A DNA stretch of 64,000 nucleotides. It comes from Bacteroidaceae bacterium. GTDB taxonomy: Bacteria; Bacteroidota; Bacteroidia; Bacteroidales; Bacteroidaceae. Position numbers and translations under genes: made by a program. Positions 34,304 to 64,000 of this stretch are shown here, in pieces. The stretch is from NCBI GenBank assembly GCA_017938245.1, contig JAGBBX010000015.1, positions 60,368-124,367 of the forward strand, written 5' to 3'. Each line of letters starts with the position of its first letter. Within the stretch, counting starts at the first letter, position 1. The notes below the pieces were generated by a model. The model was not told where the DNA came from. It made no database searches and was given only the letters and a program-made list of their open reading frames with translations.

Positions 34304-34323
34304 GAGTGGTAGTAATAAAAAAT
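34304..34323 (+). repeat. Direct repeat at guaA 3' end, right copy (att-like)
   Basis: GAGTGGTAGTAATAAAAAAT differs from 32733-32752 at one base. Read in frame it still spells Val-Glu-Trp-stop, echoing the Ile-Glu-Trp-Glu-stop of guaA. Confidence 0.7.
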
Positions 34324-34352
34324 GGAACCTCACGGTTCCATTTTTTATTACT
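34311..34352 (+). terminator. Second guaA-type terminator
   Basis: AGTAATAAAAAATGGAACC (34311-34329) pairs with GGTTCCATTTTTTATTACT (34334-34352) around TCAC. The outer arms equal those of the guaA terminator, but the inner stem differs. Confidence 0.85.
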
Positions 34353-48582: not shown

Positions 48583-49005
48583 TTACACTGTACGCTCAGG
48601 CTTAGTCCGCAGCGCGAGAAGATGCTCTATTGCAGTAACAAAATTCTTATTAAGGGCACGATAAAGAGCTGCACTATCGGGTTTTACAACGTCCATCCAA
48701 CGGGCAAAAAGTGCATTCGAAAGAAATGCTTTACACTGTGCCACAAGATTGCTCATACAGGAACATTTCCAATTCTCGGGCATATCGAGAACAAACACCA
48801 CCCTATTGCCCGAATCGTACACCTCGCTATACGGTGCAAGTAGCGCCGACAGTTCGGTAACAGAATCGTTCCACAGAGGAAGAATACGTTCCTCGTCATC
48901 CTCGGTCGATGCAACAAGTTCCGCAGCTTGTAACTTTACTCCTAAATTTGCCGAAAGACGATGTAATGCATCGTAAACCTCTTTTTTCTCAATTTCGATA
49001 TTCAT
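48583..49005 (-). CDS. Small protein, paralogue C of the cluster's head-associated family
   Basis: A 140-residue helical protein. It shares a layout with the products at 57019-57531 and 57544-58020: a short acidic turn (STEDDEE), a helix ending NDSVTELSALLAPY, a strand VVFVLDMPENW, then LVAQCKAFLSNALFARWMDV and a basic end LALRTKPER. No database family is recognised. It is the last gene of the leftward morphogenesis operon. A structural or neck role is inferred only from company. Confidence 0.6.
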   Translation of the reverse strand: MNIEIEKKEVYDALHRLSANLGVKLQAAELVASTEDDEERILPLWNDSVTELSALLAPYSEVYDSGNRVVFVLDMPENWKCSCMSNLVAQCKAFLSNALFARWMDVVKPDSAALYRALNKNFVTAIEHLLALRTKPERTV

Positions 49006-49062
49006 AGTTTATAGATTAATTAGTTAAGGAATTTATTAAAGAGTAATAATTTACAAATACTT

Positions 49063-51897
49063 TTAGGAGAGACGATTATCCCACGCTGTACTCACATTAA
49101 ACTCTAATGCAACAAGACGACTATCACATTTTATTCGTCCTACTATTGCAACGGAAAAATAGCGATACGACTGTGTGGGAGCGTATGGAAAAATTATATC
49201 ACTGAAACTACGGCGTCGTTCACTTCCTGCTACAATTTTGAAATTCTCGCCATCGTTGCTACACAGGAGATAGCAGGCAAGACCGTTGAAAGAGTAACTT
49301 CCATCGGAAGGTGTTGCCGTTGCGTGAAGCATCATCTGCATAATTCTTTTATGTAGTTTTGTACCCCACAACAATGGTCGTGTCATAAGCAGAACAGTAT
49401 TATCGCCCCTCTCACCACCCGGCATAACGACATTTGTACCCGAGTCACCATTCATCAATGTTATCAACTGCGGGTAATTATTGGATATGTGAGCAAAGCT
49501 ATACATATATTTATAGCAGGTGCCATTTGCCAATGAAAAAATATAACTATAAGGATAGTCGGGGTTGGTAACAACAAGTTCGCGATGCTCGTACAGGTAA
49601 CCAACCGATGCACCTCGCGAGTACTCTTTAAAGGTATCATCACCCACCCCGTTCTCAAGCGATACAATGGATGCTATACGAGAAATAGTGCTTTTGTTCG
49701 ACGTTGTCGGTTCGCAATCCAATGCAGCCGATAATGATGTGATGCGTCCACCCTCGATGAGCATAAGCCCCTTTTCAGCAATAAAGGTAACACCGGAGTC
49801 TATTCCTCGCACCGAGTCGGCACCGGTGCACACCTCGCGCGACAGAGGATAGCACGACGAATAGGCAAATTTGCCCGAAGCGTCGGACGACATTGCCCAA
49901 ATGCCATCGGCACAAAAAACATACAGTGGATGCTGACCGAATTGCCCCTGAGAGAGTGCTATCGTGTTGCTGCACACTGCGATAATATCTCTTTGCGAGG
50001 GGGTGTATGTCTGTGCCAACGGAAAGAGGAAAGGATTGTCGGTGGCCGATACTTTTAGCACATTTCCGCGCCGCTCGACGCACTCTTTTTCTTCGGTAGT
50101 GTCATCTTCTATCAACTCCTCCCAAGAGGCATCAATCGGGATATATGCGATGCTCTTTACATCATTAGCAAATATATTCTCCTCGATCTTCACCGTCAAT
50201 GTATCGCCAACAGCAAGTACACCTACAAAATTAAATGTGCCATAGTAACCACCCGCATCTACCTGCGAAGCAAATATAAATGGTCTGCCGTCATACATCC
50301 ACAATCCATTATCGGCATAAGTCAAAATATATACTCCCGCACGGTACGAAAAGAATGTCTTTATATTCTCTTCTGAAAGGATATAATAGGCAACATTATT
50401 GCTGAATAGTCCCGACACAGAAACATTTACTCCATCGTTCGAAGTATTCAGATAGTAAGCAATATTCAACGATTTATGCCGTGTCAAAGGAAAACTCTTG
50501 CGGTAACGTCGTCGAGTTTCACGAATAAAAAATGTCATACGCACGGCACGAGCATCGGGATATTGAATAAGCGCTGCCAAATACTTATCTCCGCTGCTGT
50601 AACCCACCTTCAGCTTATCGTAGTCGCGGCGCACAACAGCCTTTCCCTTAGTTGTTTCAATCTCGACATATACACTACCCGAGAGAGTTAGAGACGACAT
50701 TGTCGGCGGCACAAAGCAATGAGTATCGTAACCCTTGAAAAACGTCTCGCGCAGCCCTGCAATATGCATACGGTTGTTCAGTACATAAGTGTAATCGGCT
50801 GTACGCGATACGAGTGAAATACTCTCCTCGCCAATCTCCTGCGAGAGTGCCAATGACGATGGTGAAACATTAGAAAGCGAATCGACAAGTCCGCCGTTGA
50901 TATTAAACTCGGCAACCTTATAGAATTGTGAACATTTAGATACATCGTCGAAAATCTCGCTACAACTCTTTGGCATATATACATCGGGAGCAGATAACTC
51001 ATTGCCATCTTTTCGAGGCGCAATTTTATATCCCGGAATTGAGCCCGAAGAGAAAACATCAACCGAGACAATAATATTCTCCCACTCTGCAAGATTAAAA
51101 TTCGTGAAATTGAATTTTGGTGCAAACCCTTTTATCTTCACTGTATAATAGGAAGATGTTGCATCCTTATCCTGTGGAACGGCAACAAAGTTACCACCAT
51201 CGCTGTAAACTCCATCGACAACGCTACCGTCTTTTACATAGTATATTGGCGAAAAGAACGAATAACTGCCATCGAAAAGTCGAAAAGCATAGCGGAACAA
51301 TGCGCGGTCGATATAGCATCCTTTGGCATTTAATTTTGCTACGCACTCGTCGAAATAGCCTTTTGAAGCATTCTCCCAATAGAGGTTTTCATCCTCGTCA
51401 CTCGTTGTTTTTCCACTGCGGTATTTATATTCTGTTGTTACACTCTCTACGTGCGAATAGAGCGTGAACCCAAGCTCGGGCATCGGAGGGCGTTCGCCCA
51501 AGCGTCTGTAGCGTCCGGTGTCGTAAAGAGCATACAGTGTCGACGTGCTTGTAAAAAAACATACTAAATTACCTATAAACTCAATTCTCTTTACATCGGA
51601 GTATAGAGGAATTACCTCGAGTTGCGGTACATCACTGCTACGTAAAGGGTTAAAATCATTATCATAGAGATATACTGCACCGTCCTCACAGGCAATGCAC
51701 ATATACACCCCTGCAATCTCGTGACGGTAAACTGCACTGTATTTACGTGGTAACGAAGCAAGTTCCTTCGGTGGCGCAATGGGTTGCGCCACACCATTTG
51801 TAATGCGCAGATTTATAAGTTCGGCACATTCGCCATCTTTGGAATAAAGATTATCGGTACTGCGTACAATACCTTTAAATGTAATATTTTTAAGCAT
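49063..51897 (-). CDS. Large phage-tail-like protein (possible P22 gp10-type tail hub/stabilisation protein)
   Basis: A 944-residue beta-rich protein without signal peptide. The start (ITFKGIVRSTDNLYSKDGEC, AELINLRITNGVAQPIAPPK) resembles podophage tail stabilisation proteins, which begin by listing inputs for a propeller-like fold. Repeating short strands with aromatic and Gly residues continue throughout (PLYVFCADGIWAMSS, GIDSGVTFIAEKGLMLIEGG). This suggests a beta-propeller joined to other beta domains. Assignment rests on layout and neighbours; no catalytic motif was found. It lies 57 bases before the small paralogue and 7 bases after the spanin-like gene. Confidence 0.6.
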   Translation of the reverse strand: MLKNITFKGIVRSTDNLYSKDGECAELINLRITNGVAQPIAPPKELASLPRKYSAVYRHEIAGVYMCIACEDGAVYLYDNDFNPLRSSDVPQLEVIPLYSDVKRIEFIGNLVCFFTSTSTLYALYDTGRYRRLGERPPMPELGFTLYSHVESVTTEYKYRSGKTTSDEDENLYWENASKGYFDECVAKLNAKGCYIDRALFRYAFRLFDGSYSFFSPIYYVKDGSVVDGVYSDGGNFVAVPQDKDATSSYYTVKIKGFAPKFNFTNFNLAEWENIIVSVDVFSSGSIPGYKIAPRKDGNELSAPDVYMPKSCSEIFDDVSKCSQFYKVAEFNINGGLVDSLSNVSPSSLALSQEIGEESISLVSRTADYTYVLNNRMHIAGLRETFFKGYDTHCFVPPTMSSLTLSGSVYVEIETTKGKAVVRRDYDKLKVGYSSGDKYLAALIQYPDARAVRMTFFIRETRRRYRKSFPLTRHKSLNIAYYLNTSNDGVNVSVSGLFSNNVAYYILSEENIKTFFSYRAGVYILTYADNGLWMYDGRPFIFASQVDAGGYYGTFNFVGVLAVGDTLTVKIEENIFANDVKSIAYIPIDASWEELIEDDTTEEKECVERRGNVLKVSATDNPFLFPLAQTYTPSQRDIIAVCSNTIALSQGQFGQHPLYVFCADGIWAMSSDASGKFAYSSCYPLSREVCTGADSVRGIDSGVTFIAEKGLMLIEGGRITSLSAALDCEPTTSNKSTISRIASIVSLENGVGDDTFKEYSRGASVGYLYEHRELVVTNPDYPYSYIFSLANGTCYKYMYSFAHISNNYPQLITLMNGDSGTNVVMPGGERGDNTVLLMTRPLLWGTKLHKRIMQMMLHATATPSDGSYSFNGLACYLLCSNDGENFKIVAGSERRRSFSDIIFPYAPTQSYRYFSVAIVGRIKCDSRLVALEFNVSTAWDNRLS

Positions 51898-51904
51898 AAG
51901 TTTT

Positions 51905-52306
51905 CTATTTCTCTATAAGTTGGCGCAACAGCGAAAAAATTCCACTTCGCCACAGAATAAGGAAAATGAGCAATAGCACAGCTGCAATACTCCACATAGA
52001 GCAGCTGTTTTTTTTCGATTCGATTATCTCTTTTACAACCTTTGTTACAGTGTCGCACATCAATAGTGTATCGGTGCGCAAACGGTCGCGGTATAGTGTG
52101 CGGATGCGAGTAACAAATACCGTATCGGCACTCTCACGCACCCGCACACTGTCGTGCAGAAAGATACTATCGCGTGTATGAAAGGAGAGATATTGTTCAT
52201 TCACACGACCATTGCTCTCGCAGTTCTCTCTTGTTCGGCACGACACAACGAGCGACAAAAGCAGAAGAGGCAGAATTAATCGGCAATAAAAGAAGTTCCT
52301 TTTCAT
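51905..52306 (-). CDS. Putative unimolecular spanin (lipoprotein with C-terminal membrane anchor)
   Basis: A 133-residue protein. An N-terminal lipoprotein signal ends LVVSC, so Cys23 would anchor in the outer membrane. Residues about 25-100 are charged and extended (DSIFLHDSVRVRESADTVFV). A C-terminal transmembrane helix at about 105-126 (IAAVLLLIFLILWRSGIF) would sit in the inner membrane. Joining both membranes in one chain is the hallmark of u-spanins such as phage T1 gp11, of nearly the same length. Function is inferred from topology only. It overlaps no neighbour and lies in the phage-like operon. Confidence 0.6.
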   Translation of the reverse strand: MKRNFFYCRLILPLLLLSLVVSCRTRENCESNGRVNEQYLSFHTRDSIFLHDSVRVRESADTVFVTRIRTLYRDRLRTDTLLMCDTVTKVVKEIIESKKNSCSMWSIAAVLLLIFLILWRSGIFSLLRQLIEK

Positions 52307-52323
52307 AGCCCCACTGCTTACCT

Positions 52324-52605
52324 TTACATCTCGAGATACTTTATAAGAGTAAATTCACTGCGCGAGCAAAGTTTGATAAACTGTCCGGGAATAACCCCCT
52401 CGATAGTTATCTCACTTTTAGACTCTTCGAAACCAAAGTTGTCTTGAAACAGATACTCCTCCTCGCCATCGATGCTCACCATAACATCGACCGGAAAGGG
52501 ACCCTTTTTGTGCACACGCACTCTTATGTCTCCACCTATACATTCAATTGGTTCACTCTCCCAACACTCTCCGTTGAACGAGTAATTAATTTTAGAAACA
52601 GCCAT
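52324..52605 (-). CDS. Small protein of the virion-like operon
   Basis: A 93-residue, beta-rich acidic protein (RVRVHKKGPFPVDVMVSIDG, EEEYLFQDNFGFEESKSEIT). No family recognised. Its ATG lies 3 bases after the stop of the connector gene at 52609-53259, so translation is coupled. In tailed phages this position often holds a head-closure or tail accessory protein, but nothing in the sequence proves it. Confidence 0.6.
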   Translation of the reverse strand: MAVSKINYSFNGECWESEPIECIGGDIRVRVHKKGPFPVDVMVSIDGEEEYLFQDNFGFEESKSEITIEGVIPGQFIKLCSRSEFTLIKYLEM

Positions 52606-52608
52606 AAT

Positions 52609-53259
52609 CTATCGTTTTTCGTTCGATTGAAAATTATTACAATAGGCGGCAGCAATCGCCATAAGAGAATTTGCACAGTCGCGCCGCTCGAAAATATTGA
52701 AAAGCATTGCTGCACACTGATAGGCGACAGCTTTGTGCAGTGCAGTATCGCAACCCGATAGTCCCTCGTCGGGATTGTAACGTGCCTCGTAGAGTAACTC
52801 AGCAATCTGCGGTTCACTCTCTTTTGGCAACGAATAGTAAGATAATACCACACGTCCATCGGCATTATAGGACTCGATACAGACGGGACGGCAGCTCCCC
52901 GCACGAGTATAGGGATTATGTTGTGCAGCAGCCACTGCCGATTCCGATGGAAACATCTGCAAGCAGGGACGTTCCCACCCCTTCATCCTCAACGAGATTA
53001 GTTTCACAAAGTCCTCGGGCAATGTAATCTCCCCCGTACCATCACCATTATCCTTTATCCCGGCATCAGCTGCATCTTTTGGGTTGAGACTGCCCCACCC
53101 CATATTACGCTGAATCCACAGAACGGCATCGGGCAACAGCGCTGCAATGTGCTCGTCGATGGAACGAGTATCATCACTCAACAGAGTAACAGCGCTATCG
53201 TCGTACATCTCATTGATTATCTGGCGCACCTTAAGCCGCAACTCATCGTTAGTAATCAT
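52609..53259 (-). CDS. Head-tail connector-like protein (P22 gp4-like position)
   Basis: A 216-residue, mostly helical protein (LRLKVRQIINEMYDDSAVTL, ALLPDAVLWIQRNMGW, ITLPEDFVKLISLRMKGW). The pattern of helices then a small beta insertion, and the closing HKAVAYQCAAMLFNIFERRD, resembles podophage head-tail adaptors. The start is the ATG at 53257-53259, which overlaps the upstream stop as ATGA; an upstream TTG is less likely. The role is inferred from size, fold pattern and order. Confidence 0.55.
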   Translation of the reverse strand: MITNDELRLKVRQIINEMYDDSAVTLLSDDTRSIDEHIAALLPDAVLWIQRNMGWGSLNPKDAADAGIKDNGDGTGEITLPEDFVKLISLRMKGWERPCLQMFPSESAVAAAQHNPYTRAGSCRPVCIESYNADGRVVLSYYSLPKESEPQIAELLYEARYNPDEGLSGCDTALHKAVAYQCAAMLFNIFERRDCANSLMAIAAAYCNNFQSNEKR

Positions 53260-53693
53260 AACCAATTGGGAAAAGAGATGCCAAGTTCCTCGGCCTTTGC
53301 GCGAACAGCGTGTTTATTCTGCAATTGCGAGAGCGGACATTTATAAGGGTCGCCCATAAGCACCGCGCGTGCCTGCTGCGTATTACTCACATTAGGAAAG
53401 TTTTTTTCGTCGCTATCCTCCTCGTTTTTCTCATCCTCGCACTCGGCAGCAAGGTTACCATTGTCATCAAGTACAACAACCACACCTCGTCGTATTATGC
53501 CGTTACGGTAGTCGGCGCTATTCTCAATGGCACTCTGATAAAGAGGATTATCGGTTATATATTGCGCCGGAGTAATCCCTGCCGAGTTTACAGCTCCACC
53601 CGTAAACTCCACGCGTACCAGTGCCTTGCCCACTCTGAAGAAACAGTTGCGCTCGACCTGTCCGCGAATCTCGTATGTAATTCGTTTTTTCAT
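53256..53693 (-). CDS. Small head-associated protein of the virion-like operon
   Basis: A 145-residue protein. Residues 1-75 are beta-rich (KKRITYEIRGQVERNCFFRV, VRVEFTGGAVNSAGITPAQY); then an acidic linker (CEDEKNEEDSDEKN) leads to a helical tail (LQNKHAVRAKAEELGISFPNWL). The tail is reminiscent of short helix-hairpin endings of phage head-completion proteins such as lambda FI-like or rho-N-like domains, without a firm match. It follows the capsid gene after a hairpin spacer and overlaps the connector gene by 4 bases. Confidence 0.55.
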   Translation of the reverse strand: MKKRITYEIRGQVERNCFFRVGKALVRVEFTGGAVNSAGITPAQYITDNPLYQSAIENSADYRNGIIRRGVVVVLDDNGNLAAECEDEKNEEDSDEKNFPNVSNTQQARAVLMGDPYKCPLSQLQNKHAVRAKAEELGISFPNWL

Positions 53694-53711
53694 AGCAATT
53701 CTTTTTTTATA

Positions 53712-53743
53712 TCCTCCGACTATCTTTCACAATAGTCGGAGGA
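53712..53743 (-). terminator. Hairpin between the capsid gene and downstream genes (attenuator candidate)
   Basis: TCCTCCGACTAT at 53712-53723 pairs with ATAGTCGGAGGA at 53732-53743. On the minus strand it follows the capsid stop by 28 bases and is followed by an A run, not Ts. It may therefore protect the upstream message or partly reduce transcription beyond the capsid gene. Confidence 0.5.
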
Positions 53744-53771
53744 CGGTTATTTAATAGTTGTCAGTAAATTG

Positions 53772-55403
53772 TCAATCGAGCGGTGCCATAATCTCACCTG
53801 TATACTCTACCCAGGTAGTACCGGTATATGTTACCACTGTACCTGCCGAGAACCAAAGAGTATCTACACCACCCACACTGTGATTGACATCGGCGGTCAG
53901 TACCACAACATCGTTTGTGTTGGGCGACTCGGGAAGAGTAGCCGAGCTTGTCACACGTGCAGCACCCGGAATATCACTCTTGGCAGCAGCACCGTTAACC
54001 CAGATGTGGCTGTACCCTTTCAGGCAGAGACAGTCGATAGTCATCACCACCTCGCGCTTAGCTTCCTCGCCCTCGACGCGCTCTACTTCGGAGTTCTCGT
54101 TCTTCATATAGTAACGTACAAGGCCATTCTCGTCGATGAGGCCACCACAATTCGAGTATCCCAAAGCATCCAATGTTGGGTCGTGAACAAGTGCGATATC
54201 TCCGAACACAGTGTGTATTCGTGTGCAGGCAACACCCCATACCTCATCGTCCTTCACTGTGATGTTCTTATGCAGAGTAAGGTCGATTTTCTGAATATCG
54301 TTCAGCAACTGCTTACCCAGGAACCAAACAGCTTTGCGAGAACAATTAAACCCGGTGAATTTTACCATTGAGAGGTTGATGAGGTCGGCAAAAGTGATTG
54401 TCGAAGATAGGTCGTACTGACGTTTGAACTGCCAACGCAAACCCTTTGAGAAGTAGTCCCACTGATAACCCATTGCAGGATCCATCGCCTGCACCTTGAA
54501 CTTACCGGGCTGTCCCACCCACGCAGTGCGGCAACTCTCGAGGCGGAACTGACGCAAGATTGCCTCGGCAATCTGTGCCTCGCTGAACTTCATTTTCTTC
54601 TTCTGTGCCTTGAAATAGTCACTCACAATGCTGTTACACAGCTGTTTTTGCAGATAGACACGCTCGGGGACGGGAACAACAGTCGAAGGAGAGATAAATT
54701 TCTGTGTCTCGTAGGCAGCCGATGAGAGCAAGATTACCTCGGTACCGACAGGGATTGTCGGAACGACGCAATACTCATCGGTAGCATTCACTTTTGGCCC
54801 GTTTACCGCCATTGCTATGGGCGCCTCGGTAGTATCGTTCTTACCCACAAAGAAGAGCATAAGGTCGACACCCGGAAGCTCAATCTGTCCTGTGGGGTCA
54901 TAACCGTTCACCCCTTTACAGATGGCAGTATAATACTCCTGGAAGATTTTTCTCTCGCCCGTAGTAGAGAAAGGAATCTCGGCGCGAGTGGCTTTTATGC
55001 CTGTGTAGGTTGCATTTGTATAAGCCTTTGAGCGTTTCTCGTCAATCATATAATGGTCGACCTCGAACGACGATACAACCACCTTTCGCTTGATGCGGCG
55101 CTTAATGGTGTCAATCACACTCTCGTCACTTGCAATGGCAATGATTTTTTCATCGGTCTCGGCCTCGATAAGGTCGCTAATCTCCGATGCCGACGAAACC
55201 GTTGTCGCAGTACCGTGAGCGTGGTCGGCCAACCCCGCTATTCCGCGAGAGATAGTGGAACCGCCGCCTGCTGTTGCCACCGTTACTGCAGCCATCATCG
55301 TACAACCGGCATCATCGCCACCAAAAAGAAAGAGTGTAATGCTCACCATCGATAGAAGAAGAAAAAGAGGATTCTTCTTCAGAAAAGAAATTGTGTTTTT
55401 CAT
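53772..55403 (-). CDS. Major capsid-like protein (SU10-type/DUF5309-like) with N-terminal hydrophobic segment
   Basis: A 543-residue protein. Residues about 240-480 (RVYLQKQLCNSIVSDYFKAQ, KKMKFSEAQIAEAILRQFR, PGKFKVQAMDPAMGYQWDYF, FGDIALVHDPTLDALGYSNC) follow the pattern of HK97-fold capsid proteins of the SU10/DUF5309 group, as far as memory allows. Oddly, residues 1-35 hold a signal-like hydrophobic run (NPLFLLLSMVSITLFLFGGD). An internal Met pair near residue 36 (TMMAAVTVATAGGG) could be a late start, but no ribosome site is obvious there. A Thr/Val-rich beta domain closes the protein. It lies 63 bases after the scaffold gene, in the usual order. Confidence 0.65.
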   Translation of the reverse strand: MKNTISFLKKNPLFLLLSMVSITLFLFGGDDAGCTMMAAVTVATAGGGSTISRGIAGLADHAHGTATTVSSASEISDLIEAETDEKIIAIASDESVIDTIKRRIKRKVVVSSFEVDHYMIDEKRSKAYTNATYTGIKATRAEIPFSTTGERKIFQEYYTAICKGVNGYDPTGQIELPGVDLMLFFVGKNDTTEAPIAMAVNGPKVNATDEYCVVPTIPVGTEVILLSSAAYETQKFISPSTVVPVPERVYLQKQLCNSIVSDYFKAQKKKMKFSEAQIAEAILRQFRLESCRTAWVGQPGKFKVQAMDPAMGYQWDYFSKGLRWQFKRQYDLSSTITFADLINLSMVKFTGFNCSRKAVWFLGKQLLNDIQKIDLTLHKNITVKDDEVWGVACTRIHTVFGDIALVHDPTLDALGYSNCGGLIDENGLVRYYMKNENSEVERVEGEEAKREVVMTIDCLCLKGYSHIWVNGAAAKSDIPGAARVTSSATLPESPNTNDVVVLTADVNHSVGGVDTLWFSAGTVVTYTGTTWVEYTGEIMAPLD

Positions 55404-55466
55404 AGTAATAAATTTTAAAAAGTTTATGAATAAAATGATTAAGAAAAGTCGGTATATGCAAGATTA

Positions 55467-56306
55467 TTAAGCCTCAAGCGCAGCATCTATCAGCGTGTTT
55501 GTGCGACGAGGTTTGTTTGTCACAGGAGGCGCCACGCTTGTCATCCCCGAAGGCATACCATCGCCAAAATTCTCTTTCATACGCTGTATGCTTGTGTTAC
55601 GTCCCTTAATATCACCTGCGGCAAAAGCATCCTCTACATCCTGTTCGTAGTTGATAGCATTATCCAGGGCGCCACACACCTCGGCAGTATAGGTACCCGA
55701 TAAGATAGGCAGCACAAGACGCTCCCACACAGCCTCGAGAAAATCGGAGGGGTCATATCCGCGCTGTTTACAAAAATCCATAATCACAGGCTGGCTCGCC
55801 TCGAGATTCTCTTCGTACTCTTTTCGGTCTTGCGCCAAACGTATAACCTCCTCGCGACGCTCCTCATCGGCCATAAGCATCTCCTCGTACTCGGGTGAAC
55901 CCTCGTCAAAATCCATAAACTTACGCCCATAATAACGCGCCATAGCCGAGTGTGCATTACGCTTGCCATCGACAACGTCGGCAAGCATCTGTGCCATACG
56001 CGGGTCGCGTCCCAAAGCCTCGGCAAGAAGCTCATTCTGTTCGCGGTTGTCACGCAAATGCTTTATAAGCAATCTCTGCGACTCGGGATTCTCGATACTG
56101 AAGCCTGTGCCAAAAAGCGACTGCAGCACCTCGTTAAGTTCCTGAAACTCTCCTGCACTACTCTGCGGCATTGCAGGCTCGGCCACCCCGTTCTGTGGCA
56201 TTGCCTGTTGCATTGCGGCAGATGAGTTCTGTGTTTGTGCCTGCAATGGCTGTGCACCATAAGCAGCAGGCTCCATCTGTGTGTTGTTTTCCATTTCCTG
56301 ATACAT
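55467..56306 (-). CDS. Scaffolding-like protein
   Basis: A 279-residue, soluble, highly charged helical protein. A Gln/Ala/Met/Pro-rich, disordered N-terminus (about 1-65) leads to long helices (SQRLLIKHLRDNREQNELLA, DEERREEVIRLAQDRKEYEE) and a Lys/Arg-rich end with TNKPRRTNTLID. Such composition directly before a capsid gene is typical of phage scaffolding proteins. The ATG at 56304-56306 is preferred; ORF extension to 56336 would need a TTG. First gene of the leftward operon. Confidence 0.6.
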   Translation of the reverse strand: MYQEMENNTQMEPAAYGAQPLQAQTQNSSAAMQQAMPQNGVAEPAMPQSSAGEFQELNEVLQSLFGTGFSIENPESQRLLIKHLRDNREQNELLAEALGRDPRMAQMLADVVDGKRNAHSAMARYYGRKFMDFDEGSPEYEEMLMADEERREEVIRLAQDRKEYEENLEASQPVIMDFCKQRGYDPSDFLEAVWERLVLPILSGTYTAEVCGALDNAINYEQDVEDAFAAGDIKGRNTSIQRMKENFGDGMPSGMTSVAPPVTNKPRRTNTLIDAALEA

Positions 56307-56589
56307 AATGAATTTGTTTAATTGTTTCGTCGACAAAGGAAATACAAGAAAGGAGCAACAAGGTTGTCATATTATCATATTCCAATAAAAAAAGCAGAAA
56401 TCTGAGAATCCTCGCGCAGGCATAACATTATTCATATAAATCTTTGGTATAAACATTGTTCAGCTTTGCCCATCCATTAAACAATACAGAGATAATAGTT
56501 GTTTTTTTTCATTTTCGCAACCACTTTAGCCATTTTTGACTATATTTTTGTAAGCACATTCAATTACGTAAAATAACTAATCGGAAACT
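56307..56589. promoter_or_regulatory. Divergent control region of the virion-like cluster
   Basis: The 283 bases separate the two operons. TATTTTTG at 56543-56550 is a consensus -7 box facing right, 40 bases before the first rightward gene, but no -33 box is at the right distance. The leftward side has CTTTG and TTG tracts near 56325-56360 without a convincing pair. No repressor-type inverted repeat or regulator gene was seen. Confidence 0.45.
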
Positions 56590-57006
56590 ATGGGAAATTC
56601 AAATTCAAAATCGGTACGCGAGATGCGTAAAGACGCAGTGGTAAAAACATTCTTCGAGACTGTAAAGAAATTAAAATCGAAAGACAAGAATGTTACACAA
56701 GAGGAGATTTTCAAAAATGCATCGAAATGTGCTGCACCGCGCTTCTTTGTCACGTTCGAGATTGCCCGACGACTAATTTCTTCAATGGTCAAGAATCGTC
56801 GTCTGCCAATAAAGAACAAGAACAAAATAGAAATGTATAAGGAGCTGTACCGACGTTATATGAAACAGTGCAAGGGCAAGGTAGGCAACTACACAATTTT
56901 AGAGAGTATCATTGAGGAACCTGCACCTTCGTTCTACCTCGACGCCGGTTCCTTCCGAGGTATCGTATACCGCACCTTGGGAGAACGCTCATTGCAAACA
57001 GTATAA
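56590..57006 (+). CDS. Basic helical protein in the small-terminase position
   Basis: A 138-residue, Lys/Arg-rich protein. It has helices VREMRKDAVVKTFFETVKKL and VTQEEIFKNASKCAAPRFFV, then ARRLISSMVKNRRLPIKNKN. The APRFFVTFE motif is one I associate with proteins beside terminases in Bacteroidota phages. DNA binding is inferred from charge. It heads the rightward operon that ends with the large terminase, the usual place of a small terminase subunit, but no classic small-terminase motif is visible. Confidence 0.55.
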   Translation: MGNSNSKSVREMRKDAVVKTFFETVKKLKSKDKNVTQEEIFKNASKCAAPRFFVTFEIARRLISSMVKNRRLPIKNKNKIEMYKELYRRYMKQCKGKVGNYTILESIIEEPAPSFYLDAGSFRGIVYRTLGERSLQTV

Positions 57007-57018
57007 ACCCACAGCATT

Positions 57019-57531
57019 ATGAAAAGAGTAATAAGCATAAAACTAAACAACAAAAGAGTGAGGCAACGCATCGAGACACACACCTACTACACCGGCGAAG
57101 CACGTAAAAACAGCGCCCTATCGCCAATGACAGCTGCAAGAATACAGGCATCGGGCGACGATGCCACACAACTGAACGACCATCTGACGGTTGCCTGCAG
57201 CGAGATAGCCCGCCTGCTATCGACATACATTGCAATATGCCACATTCAGCAACGCGAGGCCCTCGACGAGAGTGGCGACACAATTACATTCTTCACGCTC
57301 GAGATACCGTCTAATTTCCCTGTGGAGATTACCGACGAATTCGAGACAGCCATAGAGAACTATGCCGTTGCGCGCGTGTTACAACAGTGGATGGCACAAC
57401 ACAAACCCGACGAGATGGTTATTGCCGCCAACGAGGTACAGCAACACACCGCAACACTACGCGAGTTTGCATCGTTGCGCAAGCGACCCATCCTGCACCG
57501 TCATCCAAAAAGAAAAATCATCGACGTATAA
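57019..57531 (+). CDS. Paralogue A of the cluster's head-associated small-protein family
   Basis: A 170-residue protein with the shared layout: THTYYTGEARKNS, an acidic turn (SGDDATQ), helix TVACSEIARLLSTY, strand ITFFTLEIPSNF, helix FETAIENYAVARVLQQWM and a basic end (LREFASLRKRPILHRHPKRK). The product at 57544-58020 and the one at 48583-49005 are its relatives. It lies 12 bases after the small-terminase-position gene. Role unknown; a connector or neck component is inferred from context only. Confidence 0.6.
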   Translation: MKRVISIKLNNKRVRQRIETHTYYTGEARKNSALSPMTAARIQASGDDATQLNDHLTVACSEIARLLSTYIAICHIQQREALDESGDTITFFTLEIPSNFPVEITDEFETAIENYAVARVLQQWMAQHKPDEMVIAANEVQQHTATLREFASLRKRPILHRHPKRKIIDV

Positions 57532-57543
57532 TCAAAACAGACT

Positions 57544-58020
57544 ATGGAAAACACAATACTCATAGAAAAAGAGCCACTCTACCAACAGATACATCTGAGA
57601 AACTACTATATGGGAGAATCGGCTAAGAGAAACAACATAAATGCCGACACCATAGAGAGCAGCGACGACGAGAGAGAACTCTTTGCAATGCTGCTCGATA
57701 GCGCCTGCAACGAATTGGTATCCTCCGTTGCACTGCGCTTCGAGACAGCATCATATAAGATAACACCCGAATACATCGGCATAACATTTAGCACCGAGAA
57801 TAACTCGCGTCAAGGATTACTGCCACAACTGCGTCAAGCCATTGTCGACTATCTTGTAAATGAAATTACACTACAGTGGTTATTGCTGCGCTCACCCCAG
57901 ATGGCAAACAGCTATATATCGATGCGCACCACACTTTACAACAACGTACAACAACAATTTGCCAAATTCAGCAACCTTAAAAAGGTGCGACGGCGTCCCA
58001 CCGACCTTGCAGGAATATGA
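57544..58020 (+). CDS. Paralogue B of the cluster's head-associated small-protein family
   Basis: A 158-residue protein that aligns with the preceding product: HLRNYYMGESAKRNN, SSDDERELF, LLDSACNELVSSVALRF, YIGITFSTENN, LRQAIVDYLVNEITLQWLLL and LKKVRRRP in the same order. Its stop overlaps the terminase ATG as ATGA, so their translation is coupled. That overlap suggests a fixed ratio to the terminase. No outside family was recognised. Confidence 0.6.
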   Translation: MENTILIEKEPLYQQIHLRNYYMGESAKRNNINADTIESSDDERELFAMLLDSACNELVSSVALRFETASYKITPEYIGITFSTENNSRQGLLPQLRQAIVDYLVNEITLQWLLLRSPQMANSYISMRTTLYNNVQQQFAKFSNLKKVRRRPTDLAGI

Positions 58021-59996
58021 AAAAGGAGAGAGAGAGTATAATCGAAGAAAATATACGCCGCACAACAGCCATACGCGCACCTTATAATCCCATAAGCGGT
58101 GAAGGCAGCATAAGCATCGCACGTCAAGAAGTCGAGATTGAGGATTTTCCACTAATGAAAATCTATCTCCCCACCACAATGATGGAGGATAAAGAGATTA
58201 AAAGTCTCATCGCCGACGGAGCAAAAGGCTATCTGCGCAAACTGGGTAGAACAGCCGACGAACGCGACATTCTCACCCTTTGGATAGAATTCTGCCGCAA
58301 GCGCCTTGCACACGACTTTGAATATTGGGCACGCAGCACCGCCATTATCTCGGACAAGGGAAAGGGGCGCGACATTCCCTTCACCCTCAACCGTCCGCAA
58401 AGAGAATACCTTAAAGCAATGGAGAGCCTGCGCACCACAGGCAAACCAATAGACATTATACTATGTAAGGCACGACAATGGGGAGGCAGCACACTCACAC
58501 AGCTATATATGTTGTGGATACAGTTGGTACATCGACGCAACTGGAACAGCGTCATCTGCGGCGACATCGAAAAACAATCCTCCATCGTTGCAGGAATGTT
58601 ATCGAAGGTCATCAACCGCTACCCACGATGGGCAAGCAACGGTAAGGTTGTTACCACAACCCCCTTTCAGGGAGCACGTAACACCCGAGTGATAAGCCTC
58701 GGCAACAGCCGCTACTCTCTTGGCTCGTCACAGAAACCCGACTCACTGCGAAGCGAAGATATAAGTATGGCACACCTCACCGAGGTGGGATTGTGGAAGG
58801 CAACGGCAGGACGCAAGCCCGAAGACCTCGTGCAGTCGATATTCGGCTCAATAGCCAGCGGCCCCTATACAGTAAAAGTATTGGAGTCGACCGCCAAAGG
58901 AGTAGGAAATTTCTTCCACCGCACCTGGATAGACGCAGTAGAGGGACGCAATAACTTCACACCCGTCTTTATCCCCTGGCACAGTATCGACCTCTACAGC
59001 AAGAGCATACCCCGAGACGACTATCCGGCCTTTGTCGATAGTATGAACAGTTACGAGAGAGGGCTCTTCGAGCTTGGTGCAACCCTTGAAGCAATAAACT
59101 GGTATCGCGACAAACGACGCGAGATACCCGACGAGTGGCGCCTCTTCTCCGAGTTTCCATCGAGTGCCAATGAAGCATTCCAAAGTACCGGGCATCGCGT
59201 ATTCCGCATAGAATATGTGCAGAACATACGCAGCAGTTGCGTCGCCCCACCCTTTATCGGCGACATCGACGCAGGGCACTTCGTCGAGGCAGCCTCGGGA
59301 GGCGAAAAGAGCAGCAGCAACCTATGGGTGTGGCTTATGCCCGAGAGCGACCCGGCAATGCGCGACCGCTACATCGTCACCGTCGATGTCGGTGGTGTCA
59401 GCGACAAAGCCGACTACTCCTGCATTATGGTAGCCGACCGCGCTGCGATGCCCGGCGGCGGAGTACCCGAGATTGCAGCCTGCTGGCACGGACACATCGA
59501 ACACGACAAACTCGCCTGGAAAGCAGTCGAGATAGCCCGCGCCTACAACAACGCGCTACTCGTCATCGAGGCAAACACCCTTGAGACAGAAAATACCGAA
59601 GGAGACAACTTCGAGTATATACTAAACGAAATAGCCGGACACTACAGCAACCTCTACAGCCGCACCTCGCAGCAAGAGATACGACAAGGGCGTCCGCGCC
59701 GTTGGGGATTCCACACCAACTCCTCGACCAAGCCAATGGTAATAAATTTCCTTGTCAAAGCACTGCGCGACAACCTTTACATAGAGCGTTGCCTGCCCAC
59801 CACATTCGAGCTCGACCTATACGAGTTCAAAGAGAACGGCAAGGAGATGGGCGCAGTAGAGGGCAACCACGACGACCGTGTTATGGCAACTGCCATACTC
59901 GTATGGGCCTGCTACAACCACCCGCTACCCCATCTCATAGAGAGCGACCGACAACCGCGACGTAAAAACAGAATCATCAGCGAGGCAAGCATCTGA
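58017..59996 (+). CDS. Phage terminase large subunit (complete)
   Basis: A 659-residue DNA-packaging motor with all expected sites. The ATPase has a P-loop-like CKARQWGGST at residues 150-159 and a Walker B region ISMAHLTEV with catalytic Glu256. The C-terminal RNase H-like nuclease has Asp457 in TVDVGGVSDKADYS, Glu518 in LVIEANT and Asp619/620 in EGNHDDRVMATA. No lesions are present, so it looks functional. The last codons overlap the terminator and lie in a direct repeat (59950-60051). It ends the rightward operon. Confidence 0.9.
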   Translation: MKKERESIIEENIRRTTAIRAPYNPISGEGSISIARQEVEIEDFPLMKIYLPTTMMEDKEIKSLIADGAKGYLRKLGRTADERDILTLWIEFCRKRLAHDFEYWARSTAIISDKGKGRDIPFTLNRPQREYLKAMESLRTTGKPIDIILCKARQWGGSTLTQLYMLWIQLVHRRNWNSVICGDIEKQSSIVAGMLSKVINRYPRWASNGKVVTTTPFQGARNTRVISLGNSRYSLGSSQKPDSLRSEDISMAHLTEVGLWKATAGRKPEDLVQSIFGSIASGPYTVKVLESTAKGVGNFFHRTWIDAVEGRNNFTPVFIPWHSIDLYSKSIPRDDYPAFVDSMNSYERGLFELGATLEAINWYRDKRREIPDEWRLFSEFPSSANEAFQSTGHRVFRIEYVQNIRSSCVAPPFIGDIDAGHFVEAASGGEKSSSNLWVWLMPESDPAMRDRYIVTVDVGGVSDKADYSCIMVADRAAMPGGGVPEIAACWHGHIEHDKLAWKAVEIARAYNNALLVIEANTLETENTEGDNFEYILNEIAGHYSNLYSRTSQQEIRQGRPRRWGFHTNSSTKPMVINFLVKALRDNLYIERCLPTTFELDLYEFKENGKEMGAVEGNHDDRVMATAILVWACYNHPLPHLIESDRQPRRKNRIISEASI

Positions 59997-60051
59997 TTGC
60001 CCCGCTGATGATTCTTTATATAAGAAAAATTACTTTATTCTCTTATAACAG
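59950..60051 (+). repeat. Direct repeat, copy 1 (terminase 3' end, terminator and gene-end)
   Basis: These 102 bases recur at 60883-60996 with four substitutions and a 12-base insertion (CGACGTAAAAAC, a tandem copy of adjacent sequence). The repeat holds the last terminase codons, the hairpin at 59971-60013 and the last codons (Arg-Glu-stop) of the convergent HD gene. Confidence 0.85.
59971..60013. terminator. Terminator after the terminase gene
   Basis: GAATCATCAGCG, one mismatch, GGCAA pairs with TTGCC, CGCTGATGATTC. The hairpin includes the terminase stop codon and can act for both converging genes. Confidence 0.8.
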
Positions 60052-60505
60052 AATAGAACTCACTTAAATTTGCTGCAAAGTATTTGCCTCGCTCAGTAGC
60101 CATTTTCTTGGGATTCGGGATTATATCCACTCTCATAAGGTCGAGCCTATCAGCATCGAAACAGGTATCAATAGTTATATCTCCTGTTCTTCGGCATACA
60201 GTGTGCAGTTCACAAGCCTTACGCAATTGTTCAAACACCCCCTCATCAAGACCGGAAAGCAGAGTATCACGTAGTTCCAACAGATGTTCGGCAGCACGTT
60301 TTCCGTGCTCCAAGTCTTCCCTATTATCTATGCGCCATTTATCGTGTAAATATGCAAACAGTCGCACAACAGTTGTATTAACCTCCTCTGTTGCCAATAA
60401 CAGACCATTACGCTCTACACGTTCCCAATGTGGCAGTCCGTGACATTCATCAAGTTCCCAACCTTCAACAGCAAATTGTTTTATCTTCTTAATCAATGAG
60501 TCCAT
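60035..60505 (-). CDS. HD-domain phosphohydrolase
   Basis: A 156-residue protein with ECHGLPHWERVERNGLLLA (metal His) near residue 20, the HD pair in FAYLHDKWR near residue 48, HGKRAAEHLL and a later ELHTVCRRTGDITID. This fits small HD hydrolases acting on nucleotides or phosphoesters. The start at 60505 is an internal ATG in a longer open frame: upstream codons belong to the broken DUF6922-like gene and read through in frame. It lies inside the segment bounded by the 102/114-base direct repeats, so it was probably inserted as a unit. Confidence 0.8.
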   Translation of the reverse strand: MDSLIKKIKQFAVEGWELDECHGLPHWERVERNGLLLATEEVNTTVVRLFAYLHDKWRIDNREDLEHGKRAAEHLLELRDTLLSGLDEGVFEQLRKACELHTVCRRTGDITIDTCFDADRLDLMRVDIIPNPKKMATERGKYFAANLSEFYSVIRE

Positions 60506-60805
60506 ATTCAACAGTCTGTGTCTGCAACATCTTAATTCCTCCCTTTTAAGTTTAAAAGCCAAACAAACAAAATTAATATCTATTGGGCTCAAATACGGAA
60601 TGCATTTAACAGTTTCTCGAAATCCTTCTATGCCACCATAGATATCAAATGCAGCATAATAATCTTCAGGGCAACCAAGTTCAATCACGCGTTGCACCAC
60701 AAGAGTACGAGAACCTTGCCAATCGAAATTCTACAAGTCGTACTCCCAAAGTAGTGCAGGATTAAGCTTGTGTCCGTTTTTTGTATAATTATCTAATATT
60801 ACCAT
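60506..60805 (-). pseudogene. DUF6922-like gene with in-frame stop
   Basis: From ATG 60805 the minus strand reads MVILDNYTKNGHKLNPALLW, EYDL, a TAG (60733-60731), then NFDWQGSRTLVVQRVIELGC and PEDYYAAFDIYGGIEGFRET, ending LRCCRHR. The joined product matches my recollection of the DUF6922 domain, often an antitoxin-like partner of AbiEii nucleotidyltransferases, which are absent here. The stop probably replaced a Glu or Lys codon. Its 3' end runs without a stop into the HD gene. A late start beyond the TAG would make only a fragment. Confidence 0.6.
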
Positions 60806-60882
60806 ACAGCCTCACCCGATTTATGCAAAGGTAGCATATTTTAGAAATAAAACAAAACAATTTCTGAATTTGAAGCCTCATT

Positions 60883-60996
60883 GACAACCGTGACGTAAAA
60901 ACCGACGTAAAAACATAATCATCAGCGAGGCAAGCATCTGATTGCCCCGCTGATGATTCTTTATATAAGAAAAATTACTTTATTCTCTTGTAGCAG
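60883..60996 (+). repeat. Direct repeat, copy 2
   Basis: A second copy of 59950-60051. It keeps the remnant reading of the terminase tail (IISEASI-stop) and the hairpin (60917-60958) and ends in the last codons of the Cse60-like gene, which also ends Arg-Glu-stop. Confidence 0.85.
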
Positions 60997-61195
60997 CCTT
61001 ACTTTCCACCGTTTCATATATAACCATCACCGTCCAGTTCTGCCACGCAGAGTTATGCGGATTAGGATAGTCGGCTGTGTACTTTATATCCTTGACAATA
61101 ATAGTATCCTTATTCTCACTAAGGAAGGTATTAACCTGCTTCTCGAACTTCTCCATATCGGGAGTGCGGTCTCGGAATAATTTAATCTGTACCAT
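60980..61195 (-). CDS. Cse60-like small protein
   Basis: A 71-residue protein: VQIKLFRDRTPDMEKFEKQV, NTFLSENKD, IIVKDIKYTADYP, WTVMVIYE. The order of a short beta strand, helix, strand IxDIKY and a final strand resembles the Cse60 family named for a Bacillus sporulation gene but widespread in gut bacteria; this is from memory. Function unknown. It was probably the original convergent neighbour of the terminase before the HD segment arrived. Confidence 0.6.
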   Translation of the reverse strand: MVQIKLFRDRTPDMEKFEKQVNTFLSENKDTIIVKDIKYTADYPNPHNSAWQNWTVMVIYETVESKAATRE

Positions 61196-61321
61196 AATTA
61201 TAATCTGCTATTGTTTGTTACATATATAATATAGACACAAAGAGGAAAAAATTCAAAAAGAAGGACAACTTTTTAAAAAGTTTATAATCAGAGGTCAATA
61301 TCTTAAAATATATGCTCCGCA

Positions 61322-62083
61322 CTATTTATAAAAAGTTATCCAATTTGTACAATAATCGTGACTCTTTGTGTGCAACTCTATAATACTATCATTATCACGA
61401 TACCAAGCGTAGTTCCAACCTCTCCCCATATCTAAATATATAGCATTTGTAACATTGGCTTTCTTTAGAGATACTTTGAATTCTCCAAACGTAGTTGTCG
61501 TGTCTGATTCTATTATGCAAAGAGTGTCTGATAGTTCACATAATGCGCGAAATATATTACGACTTTCATTTTCCCTAACCGTTTGTAAAATCTCAGAATT
61601 ATAAATTATTAACTCTTGAGCAAAGGCCATACCATCATAATTCTGAGCAGAATCAAGTTCACTAGAATAATTCCTATATAGAAATTTCCATTTTTCTTTA
61701 TAGAAGACAAAAGCTCCAGTATTGCTCTCACACCTATAACCCCTATATCTTCTACCAGAGGAAACGTGATCTCCTGCAATATTTGAATGATTAAATTCTG
61801 ATAAACACCTACCGGTATATGCAGCTGCTGCAACAAATATTACAGAACTATCATTTTTTAAAGGCATTTTACCACATACTAAATCAATTTTGGTAAAATG
61901 CGGATAAATCATCCGTAAGCCATTAGAACGACGAATTTCTATACTATTAATTTTTGTTTGTTTTTTTGAATCAATAGAATCAACATTATTTGCAATTTCA
62001 ACTTGTTTCTGCGATTCAATAGAACAAGAAGAACAAGATATTAAACACAAAACAAATGATAATACGTAGTAACAAGATTTCAT
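61322..62083 (-). CDS. Lipoprotein, possible phosphodiester glycosidase (NAGPA)-like
   Basis: A 253-residue protein. The lipoprotein signal MKSCYYVLSFVLCLISC gives the start at 62083; the open frame runs further upstream but overlaps the previous gene. Conserved-looking blocks are VIFVAAAAYTG, SGRRYRGYRCESNTGAFVFY, GMAFAQELIIYNSEIL and NAIYLDMGRGWNYAWYRDND, which resemble the NAGPA/DUF2233 phosphodiester glycosidase layout. Enzymatic function is inferred only loosely. The gene is AT-rich. It follows the trypsin-like gene by 31 bases on the same strand. Confidence 0.55.
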   Translation of the reverse strand: MKSCYYVLSFVLCLISCSSCSIESQKQVEIANNVDSIDSKKQTKINSIEIRRSNGLRMIYPHFTKIDLVCGKMPLKNDSSVIFVAAAAYTGRCLSEFNHSNIAGDHVSSGRRYRGYRCESNTGAFVFYKEKWKFLYRNYSSELDSAQNYDGMAFAQELIIYNSEILQTVRENESRNIFRALCELSDTLCIIESDTTTTFGEFKVSLKKANVTNAIYLDMGRGWNYAWYRDNDSIIELHTKSHDYCTNWITFYK

Positions 62084-62114
62084 ATTTAGTCTGTTGCATT
62101 TATACATATAGTAG

Positions 62115-62891
62115 CTAAGGTATATATGGTTTAATAAGTTGTATATTCCAGGCATAGTTGAGATTGGCACCAGAATCGTCTATTCCTCCAGATGTTATAC
62201 CGACTGCCTCTCCTTTTGAATTTAGCAAAACACCTCCACTACTTCCGTGATCAATTGGAGCACTAATCTGTAGAATCGTTCCGTTCTCCCTTATCTGTGA
62301 TATTTCGCCAGATGAAAAAGTGTTATCCAATCCTCTTGGACTTCCGATAGTATATATTTTTTCTCCTACTTTTGGTGTATTATTTGCAATCTTAATGTAG
62401 TTTACTTTTCTGCTAACTCCGACCCTGAATATTATAAAGTCGTTGTCTTGACTCTTATGGTAAACTTCCGTTACCTTATATGAACTTCCATCGGAAAGTA
62501 TTATGTCTTCATAGCCAACAGCGGTACCTTGAAAAACATGGTAATTACTTACTGCAATACCGTTACTAGATATGAAGAAGCCAGAACCTTGGAACCCTTG
62601 ATACCCAGTAGATGTATGAATCTTAAATACCGCAGATGATAGTTTTTCAAAGATCTCACTTGGAGACAAAACTCTACCATTTGTAGTATTACCGACATCT
62701 GAAGTTTTATTTGTCTGAGAAGTTCCTTTTTGTTGATGTGGTAGTGGTGGGCGACCATTATTAGAGAATGAACCTGGTCGAGAAGATGGACTAGAAACAG
62801 GATAGTTATTATTACCCTTAGGAGCTGCTGGTTTTTGAGCACAACCTACAGATATCAGTAGTATGAGCAGTATATATAGTATTTGTTTCAT
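62115..62891 (-). CDS. Trypsin-like serine protease lipoprotein (DegP/HtrA-type domain, no PDZ)
   Basis: A 258-residue protein. The signal ends ISVGC (Cys16). A Pro/Ser/Asn-rich linker (about 20-70) precedes a single S1C protease domain with His117 in VSNYHVFQ, Asp150 in QDNDFIIF and Ser217 in DHGSSGGVL. No PDZ domain is present. It lies 3 bases after the MotB/ZorB-like gene, so it probably acts with that system in the envelope. The AT-rich composition differs from the core genes. Confidence 0.82.
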   Translation of the reverse strand: MKQILYILLILLISVGCAQKPAAPKGNNNYPVSSPSSRPGSFSNNGRPPLPHQQKGTSQTNKTSDVGNTTNGRVLSPSEIFEKLSSAVFKIHTSTGYQGFQGSGFFISSNGIAVSNYHVFQGTAVGYEDIILSDGSSYKVTEVYHKSQDNDFIIFRVGVSRKVNYIKIANNTPKVGEKIYTIGSPRGLDNTFSSGEISQIRENGTILQISAPIDHGSSGGVLLNSKGEAVGITSGGIDDSGANLNYAWNIQLIKPYIP

Positions 62892-62894
62892 ATA

Positions 62895-63647: not shown

Positions 63648-63650
63648 TTA

Positions 63651-64000
63651 TTAATCACCAATTTTTCCGGGTTTAGGAAGAATATGTATAAGGAATCGCT
63701 GGTTAAGTACTTCCTTTGATTCTCTCATAAGTCCTGTGCCACTTAAACGTCCATCACCACTACCACAAATTAGTACTTCACAATTTTTATCATTAAAATT
63801 CAACCCGTTATCTTCCCAAAATTTTTTAAGAGATAATGCTCTTTGATAGCTTAACTCGTAATTATAAGCATATCCATCTTTCGATGCTTGTCCTTCAATA
63901 ATAAGGAGATACTGGATATGAGGGTTACTTTGTGTCGTTTTAATAATAAAATCTTGTAGGATCTTACCTGTCGTTCTTAAATCTTCTTTTGTACTTGATG
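63651..64000 (-). CDS. MotB/ZorB-like protein with OmpA-type domain (copy 2, N-terminus beyond window)
   Basis: The visible 115 C-terminal residues read IIEGQASKDGYAYNYELSYQ, RALSLKKFWEDNGLNFND, CEVLICGSGDGRLSGTGLMR, NQRFLIHILPKPGKIGD, then a stop at 63651-63653. They are closely similar to the C-terminus of the next gene, so the two are tandem duplicates. The N-terminal half, including any membrane anchor, lies beyond the right edge. Confidence 0.78.
   Translation of the reverse strand, partial: SSTKEDLRTTGKILQDFIIKTTQSNPHIQYLLIIEGQASKDGYAYNYELSYQRALSLKKFWEDNGLNFNDKNCEVLICGSGDGRLSGTGLMRESKEVLNQRFLIHILPKPGKIGD

Follow-up and report, generated by a model that had tools for sequence, protein, structure and literature searches.

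What keeps a set of capsid and terminase genes, every reading frame open, in a bacterial chromosome with no portal, integrase or replication gene beside it? The question is raised by positions 48583-59996 of a 64,000-nt stretch (the window) of contig JAGBBX010000015.1 from assembly GCA_017938245.1 (Bacteroidaceae bacterium), where 12 genes form two divergent operons. Our analysis indicates that this cluster is probably the capsid-terminase locus of a domesticated, vertically inherited particle system, derived from a short-tailed phage, dispersed over three loci and resembling a gene transfer agent (GTA). The first-pass annotation of this DNA had offered a domesticated particle as one reading, and the data support it: the system is genus-wide, mostly single copy, under purifying selection, co-diversified with its hosts, and flanked by housekeeping genes where flanks were looked at.

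The leftward operon encodes, in order, a scaffold-like protein, the capsid, a 145-aa (amino acid) protein, the adaptor, a 93-aa protein, a spanin-like lipoprotein, a 944-aa tail protein and a 140-aa protein; the rightward operon encodes a 138-aa candidate small terminase, 170-aa and 158-aa paralogues of the 140-aa protein, and the large terminase. A scan of genome contigs recovered 47 related loci, of which 42 are of the window's type (terminase 68-88% identical). The locus counts below refer to the 29 window-type loci that reach more than 4.3 kb past the capsid gene, some of which end before the last gene; eight cluster genes are present in all 29. G027 denotes a genome of the genus that carries a related prophage.

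48583..49005, minus strand: 140-aa protein, one of three paralogues (phrog_19255, 4.2e-6; 21/29 loci)
49063..51897, minus strand: 944-aa tail protein (phrog_32516, 2e-59; homologues in phages BF1-TP2, BS-TP4 and BKO1-TP3; 26/29 loci)
51905..52306, minus strand: 133-aa spanin-like lipoprotein with a C-terminal membrane segment (sequence features; homologue in the G027 prophage; 26/29 loci)
52324..52605, minus strand: 93-aa conserved protein (21/29 loci)
52609..53265, minus strand: head-tail adaptor (SU10_adaptor, 0.0013; phrog_2941, virion structural protein, 0.0055; 29/29 loci)
53256..53693, minus strand: 145-aa capsid-operon protein (29/29 loci; between adaptor and capsid genes in viral contigs)
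53772..55403, minus strand: major capsid protein, SU10 type (relatives match PF17236; PDB 9in6; 43/44 genus genomes)
55467..56336, minus strand: scaffold-like protein (phrog_22323, 1.8e-12; adjoins the capsid gene in most phages and relatives examined)
56334..56367, minus strand: promoter element RCAACM-N23-YTTTG of the capsid operon (architecture shared with the promoter of the portal operon)
56517..56550, plus strand: promoter element of the terminase operon (second of two RCAACM-N23-YTTTG matches in the window)
56527..56549, plus strand: putative S24-repressor operator TAGCC-N6-GRCTA, overlapping the promoter (one of two matches in the genome)
56590..57006, plus strand: 138-aa candidate small terminase (phrog_27246, 1.9e-14; 29/29 loci; between scaffold and TerL in many phage relatives)
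57019..57531, plus strand: 170-aa paralogue of the 140-aa protein (phrog_19255, 4.8e-10; 29/29 loci)
57544..58020, plus strand: 158-aa paralogue of the 140-aa protein (phrog_19255, 0.0014; 29/29 loci)
58017..59996, plus strand: large terminase (phrog_2, 2.9e-22; ATPase and nuclease motifs conserved)

The twelve open frames confirm the earlier description of two divergent, intact operons with scaffold-like, SU10-type capsid, adaptor and large terminase genes. Nine of the 12 proteins match PHROG families, most of them without a named function. The SU10 type of the capsid holds by way of its relatives and not by the window protein itself, whose own SU10_MCP match (0.014) falls below the curated cut-off; we assign it as the capsid because 23 of 30 aligned relatives match PF17236 (SU10_MCP; best 1.6e-50) and the profile finds a solved phage major capsid (PDB 9in6, 8.9e-20). 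The SU10_adaptor match of the adaptor is likewise below the curated cut-off. Across 11 aligned relatives the large terminase retains, intact, the motifs that we take to be those of its ATPase and nuclease. The previously named spanin-like and 944-residue tail proteins stand as far as homology, position and sequence features carry them; the latter is suspected to be of the short-tail nozzle type, and profiles of it and of the candidate small terminase matched no convincing solved structure. The true start of the scaffold-like protein is probably an ATG near 56306 or 56294. A holin-like membrane protein gene is found in 25 of the 29 relatives' loci, and neither in the window's cluster nor in its nearest relative, L002. 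The core-like base composition that had been noted is borne out by GC content (0.478 in the cluster versus 0.452 in 30 other long open reading frames of the window) and codon usage (r = 0.92). Elsewhere in the window, AT-rich stretches at 6001-10000, 33001-35000 and 60001-64000 (GC 0.35-0.37 versus about 0.45 elsewhere) are possibly inserted islands, and the 64 kb contain no tRNA gene.

From which phages might such a cluster derive? Its large terminase is 39.3-40.5% identical, over 97-98% of the query, to those of the Bacteroides phages BF1-TP2 (PQ571263), BS-TP4 (PQ571277) and BKO1-TP3 (PQ571269), which share its divergent arrangement of capsid and terminase genes. Unlike the cluster, however, these are genomes of 64-68 kb with a portal annotated at or within 1 kb of the terminase, and BF1-TP2, the only one of the three read whole, also carries integrase, repressor and replication genes that the cluster does not have. 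The records PQ571263.1, PQ571277.1 and PQ571269.1 label the large terminase 'tail spike protein'. Among viral contigs (the best 80 loci of a longer list), the common order is adaptor, 145-aa protein, capsid and scaffold on one side, and small terminase, large terminase, portal and large protein on the other; compared with this order, the window block is without the portal and the genes that follow it.

In a terminase tree built by a quick method, with SH-aLRT support and no bootstrap, 17 window-type sequences form one clade (SH-aLRT 100) beside three Bacteroides-group prophages. These nearest phage relatives, in Bacteroides timonensis (L037), an uncultured Bacteroides (L040) and G027 (L038), have terminases 58-62% identical to that of the cluster (62% for G027) and hold the portal in the same block, whereas the portal of the cluster's genome lies in a separate operon. 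The G027 prophage, with an integrase and a 3,649-aa large polyvalent protein, is a lineage separate from the cluster; it is found on contig C6 (L135-L137) of a genome that also carries the domesticated system. In a Muribaculaceae metagenome-assembled genome (MAG; L047), terminase and capsid genes are split by non-phage-like genes, with members of the 140/158/170-aa family nearby, and this may be another domesticated lineage.

The lack of portal, integrase and replication genes reported in the first-pass annotation holds for the 12 cluster proteins, which match no such family (PHROGs; Pfam for ten of them), but not for the genome as a whole: a P22-type portal of 642 aa is encoded at C40:49325-51253 (Pfam 1.7e-38; PHROG portal 2.6e-58). 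It is the last gene of an operon (C40:49325-56756) that also encodes proteins of 181, 149 and 1,474 aa, the largest being a relative of the large polyvalent protein of the G027 prophage. Since the portal was found elsewhere in the genome, we rejected the idea of a portal hidden inside the cluster; the portal has moved to a separate operon and has not been lost. Because a recognisable P22-type portal is present in this second operon, two further readings in that annotation, a capsid-forming satellite and a phage lineage with unrecognised core proteins, are left unsupported.

Searching with the portal of the G027 prophage, we found portal genes in 41 of 44 genus genomes, including all 11 of high quality, at 56-60% identity where complete. 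Matches are split or partial in G025, G032, G034 and G035, a second copy is present in G027 and G040, and a 42nd genome, G014, has the start of the portal operon at a contig edge. The capsid and portal loci share a contig in 11 genomes, about 12 to 103 kb apart, and lie on separate contigs in the window's own genome and others. F-type ATP synthase genes stand between the two loci in G042, G023 and G028, with ligA, dapA and malic enzyme genes past the portal. The large protein near the portal or terminase measures 3,649 aa in the prophage (L136:9049-19998) and 1,118-1,887 aa, in complete frames, in the genus (e.g. L120:11909-16333).

The capsid gene is also widespread: it is matched in 43 of the 44 genus genomes, among them all 11 of high quality. 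Identity is at least 74% in 42 of the 44; G040 has only distant copies and G015 none, and four matches flagged with an internal stop have frames that are open over 535-539 aa. The terminase was matched in 51 of 399 family genomes, 34 in the same genus and 17 in other genera at 28-47% identity. For comparison, an rpoB domain was found in 29 of the 44 genus genomes (9 of the 11 of high quality), so gaps in MAGs can explain absences of system genes. Ten of the 42 window-type loci have a metallo-beta-lactamase-fold gene on the right-hand side of the terminase, so that surroundings are partly shared among loci, while the window's own flanking genes stand beside none of the other loci in the contig scan.

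Capsid-forming phage satellites are mobile, integrase-bearing elements of patchy distribution. Small size, the lack of replication genes and the related full-length, integrase-bearing prophage in G027 would suit such a satellite, or a fragment of an active phage that uses a helper. However, the cluster is present in nearly all species without an integrase context, the system is split over unlinked loci, and the flanks looked at are housekeeping genes (ligA, dapA, malic enzyme, ATP synthase). No integrase-bearing prophage context was found around the 42 window-type loci, using a profile made from few phage sequences and with many of the loci short; the integrase profile itself was matched in one of the 42, and a tyrosine recombinase adjoins one cluster locus (L030) and one portal locus (G012). 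The first-pass annotation had held that the same block within complete prophages bearing integrase and portal would speak against domestication; none was seen among the 42 with this profile, and the G027 prophage belongs to another lineage. We rejected a satellite or helper-dependent fragment on its distribution (capsid in 43 of 44 genomes) and consider it extremely improbable.

Is the cluster then simply a prophage in decay? Its genes are under strong purifying selection. Between G042 and G023, dN/dS is 0.012 for the capsid, 0.020 for the portal, 0.036 for the scaffold, 0.050 for the S24 repressor described below, 0.061 for the terminase, 0.067 for the adaptor, 0.128 for the tail protein, 0.166 for the large protein and 0.232 for the spanin; between the window and L002 it is 0.036 for the capsid, 0.082 for the terminase, 0.108 for the tail protein and 0.30 for the spanin. 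The suggestion that selection is keeping the cluster is thus upheld by the two-species values for capsid, terminase and tail-like protein, which span 0.012-0.13. Conservation with host phylogeny, proposed earlier as a check, was also found, in part: capsid, portal and rpoB distances correlate (Mantel r 0.53-0.80 overall; capsid-portal 0.76, n = 25; capsid-rpoB 0.80, n = 21; portal-rpoB 0.55, n = 24), and for 19 genomes the trees share 11 of 16 splits between capsid and portal, 8 between capsid and rpoB, and 6 between portal and rpoB. A defective or cryptic prophage, widespread by chance and decaying, would fit the lack of an identified integrase, replication genes or complete lysis set, and the shortened portal-side large protein (1,474 aa, against 3,649 aa in the prophage). 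It is at odds with open frames, low dN/dS, host congruence and conserved cis-elements at unlinked loci; dN/dS, open frames and core presence led us to reject it, and we hold it to be very unlikely.

The third locus encodes a predicted regulator. An HTH-S24 protein gene adjoins the tail gene in several species, and the S24 repressor is present in 41 of 44 genus genomes and all 11 of high quality. Its copy in the window's own genome, a 213-aa open frame at C63:37503-38144, lies among housekeeping genes about 71 kb from the cluster. The protein matches Pfam Peptidase_S24 (3e-10), is 25-28% identical to phage repressors, and carries an Ala-Gly site, a GTSMEP serine and an MIKR lysine, which we take, by analogy with CI/LexA proteins, to be those of a self-cleaving repressor. 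Membership of this family suggests a CI/LexA-type repressor that would cleave itself and bind operators.

Regulatory patterns were derived by reading the promoters of 16 genomes, which makes the counts partly circular there, though not in the other genomes; operator matches were sorted, and promoter matches in G001-G029 counted, by hand. The putative operator TAGYC-N6-GRCTR-YANWTWT has 45 matches in 28 of 44 genomes, versus 3 for the reversed control: S24 genes have 27 of them immediately upstream, the cluster's divergent promoter accounts for 16, and 2 are elsewhere (G011, G014). The window's own genome has exactly two, before the repressor gene and at window positions 56527-56549. Matches to the promoter pattern GCAACC-N23-YTTTGC number 210, spread over 43 of 44 genomes, versus 20 for the control. 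Among G001-G029, 20 of the 28 genomes with a capsid locus have the pattern directly ahead of the capsid operon, and 19 of the 27 with a portal locus have it directly ahead of the portal operon, together 39 of the 149 matches listed. In the window, the divergent promoter holds the only two matches to the relaxed form, RCAACM-N23-YTTTG. Species differ in the left part of the motif, but 5 of 13 genomes compared have it identical at the capsid and portal loci. The strict pattern also precedes genes for 168-aa and 196-aa proteins (L401 5078 and 6491; L403 999) that match no particle profile, which indicates a promoter class wider than the particle genes.

Taken together, these elements suggest how the system might operate. 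The S24 repressor would occupy its own promoter and the terminase promoter of the cluster until RecA-triggered self-cleavage removed it, and a host activator or sigma factor acting at GCAACC-N23-YTTTGC promoters would then turn on the capsid and portal operons together; such an activator is probably a host factor, because the promoter also precedes non-phage genes. Capsids would form around scaffold and portal, the terminase would fill them with host DNA headful by headful, and lysis would free particles able to inject that DNA into kin. Assembly, packaging and the behaviour of the repressor are predicted here from protein families. The same genes could instead make a domesticated particle with another job, for instance a host-encoded capsid and terminase set that disturbs related phages, as a decoy or by hijacking, or a particle that injects and kills. 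Any exapted use would agree with core presence, selection and S24 control, the genus also contains a related prophage (G027), and no receptor-binding or endolysin gene was identified; however, the full DNA-packaging chain of terminase motifs, portal, scaffold, capsid and adaptor has been kept, beyond the needs of a decoy, and headless killing tails would need no terminase. We judge such another job unlikely.

Several observations weigh against the proposal that the cluster belongs to a GTA-like system. Particles, DNA packaging and transfer are proposals for a system known from its genes alone, and since the features it shares with GTAs concern origin, endogenisation and descent, we call it GTA-like and not a proven GTA. 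The window's own genome (2.7 Mb) is 86% complete and 6.9% contaminated, and the window-type loci with record titles all come from MAGs, mostly of ruminant gut. Within the particle genes, position is the sole basis for the small terminase candidate, no receptor-binding or endolysin gene was identified in the system, and the holin-like gene is absent from the cluster of the window's own genome. Some genomes gave no match to the capsid (G015), the portal (G006, G014, G016) or the repressor (G001, G014, G035), with listed completeness of 63-85%, and the portal and rpoB trees agree in only 6 of 16 splits. As for regulation, 16 of 44 genomes contain no match to the operator pattern, and of the 149 promoter matches listed for G001-G029, 110 lie away from the capsid and portal operons, about ten of these on the cluster's terminase side; some matches precede non-phage genes. 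In addition, when capsid and portal promoters were compared blind for common 17-mers, 5 of 13 genomes (two of them, G042 and G023, closely related) had identical words and a sixth agreed in 16 of 17 letters, with the remaining seven at or near shuffle level.

Does the system extend beyond this genus? Searched across the order, the capsid had matches in 33 of 393 genomes, counting the window's own. In 21 of the other 32 together with the window's own, the portal was found in 22 of 22 and the terminase in 21 of 22 (the miss being G718), with a second copy of both only in G542. The portal gene lies no more than 10 kb from the capsid gene in 4 of 21 (G719, G641, G718, G781), the other 17 having it farther away or on a separate contig; for the terminase such closeness is seen in 1 of 20. 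Two single-contig genomes, probably of isolates, illustrate the dispersal, with capsid, terminase and portal at 1.395, 1.427 and 1.149 Mb in G697 and at 2.726, 2.759 and 2.773 Mb in G664. A single clade (support 100) unites fifteen such terminases from six families, five of the families being monophyletic and f60 not resolved. The capsid locus lies directly beside a class I fumarate hydratase gene in 11 of 14 loci examined in families f60, f68, f88 and f109 (five by Pfam, four by at least 93% identity to those and two by tblastn; G760 was left out); the hydratase is about 4 kb off in L417, and two short contigs, L239 and L416 (which breaks off at the capsid gene), yielded none. In f22 all three loci stand beside an Xaa-Pro aminopeptidase gene, and in genus g138 the capsid is present in 9 of 9 genomes.

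The second-clade loci of these six other families (L228-L247, L264-L283, L415-L418) have dispersed capsid, portal and terminase genes, and their large-protein matches measure 755-864 aa (L264:16959). A third arrangement is seen in f26 (L243, L244, L247), where a 414-426-aa capsid gene has a 475-532-aa portal-like gene close by and the terminase is 8 kb away, far away or not found. On balance, we lean towards the view that GTA-like exchange is old and repeated in Bacteroidales, one phage lineage having been domesticated at least twice, at the base of the genus and in a much earlier ancestor of several other families. In those families the capsid locus has mostly stayed next to fumarate hydratase, the portal often goes with the tail protein, and the terminase is found alone or near the ejection-type gene, with distances usually of tens to hundreds of kb.

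If this is correct, GTA biology would gain a major phylum through a particle system that is core, regulated and dispersed in a gut genus and has a second clade in six other families, and the heavy gene flow among gut Bacteroidales would have a further, new route. Promoters and operators shared by unlinked phage genes might also serve to find other GTAs, since GTA loci are dispersed and look like remnants.

How does the system compare with those already known? Against the GTA definition in section 3 of PMC9662315, its particle proteins are of tailed-phage origin; it is fully endogenised over several loci (three in the window's own genome, on contigs C63 and C40); and it is vertically inherited and has co-diversified with its hosts, with partial congruence (6-11 of 16 splits). 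The definition further asks for particles that enclose mostly random host DNA, have no room for the whole of the system's own genome and deliver DNA to other cells; the second of these traits is likely for a system with unlinked loci. It is not the contiguous genome with integrase, replication genes and portal that a temperate prophage would be, and, from capsid presence and the integrase search, it has neither the integrase nor the patchy spread of a capsid-forming satellite. RcGTA, BaGTA and BhGTA, as set out in PMC9662315, are likewise tailed-phage-derived, multi-locus and vertically inherited, and without replication or integration genes; in BhGTA a putative terL lies outside the structural cluster, which recalls the splitting of genes across loci here. 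Known GTAs tend to have a small terminase without a DNA-binding domain, according to PMC11841831. FpGTA of Faecalibacterium (PMC12946183, which also reports lateral transduction for Bacteroides) is also from a gut bacterium, probably short-tailed, and made up of a 10.5-kb capsid-terminase operon and a second, unlinked operon. However, it belongs to Bacillota, has its portal in the main operon, and its particles and their DNA of about 9 kb are established by experiment, whereas those of the present system are predicted from genomes. A search of titles and abstract openings, with bioRxiv and subscription journals mostly uncovered, found no report of a GTA in Bacteroidota, and the three-locus system is the first GTA-like one known to us in that phylum. 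It thereby differs from RcGTA, BaGTA and BhGTA in its phylum, in its ancestor, with a P22-type portal and SU10-type capsid, and in its S24 repressor with a putative operator.

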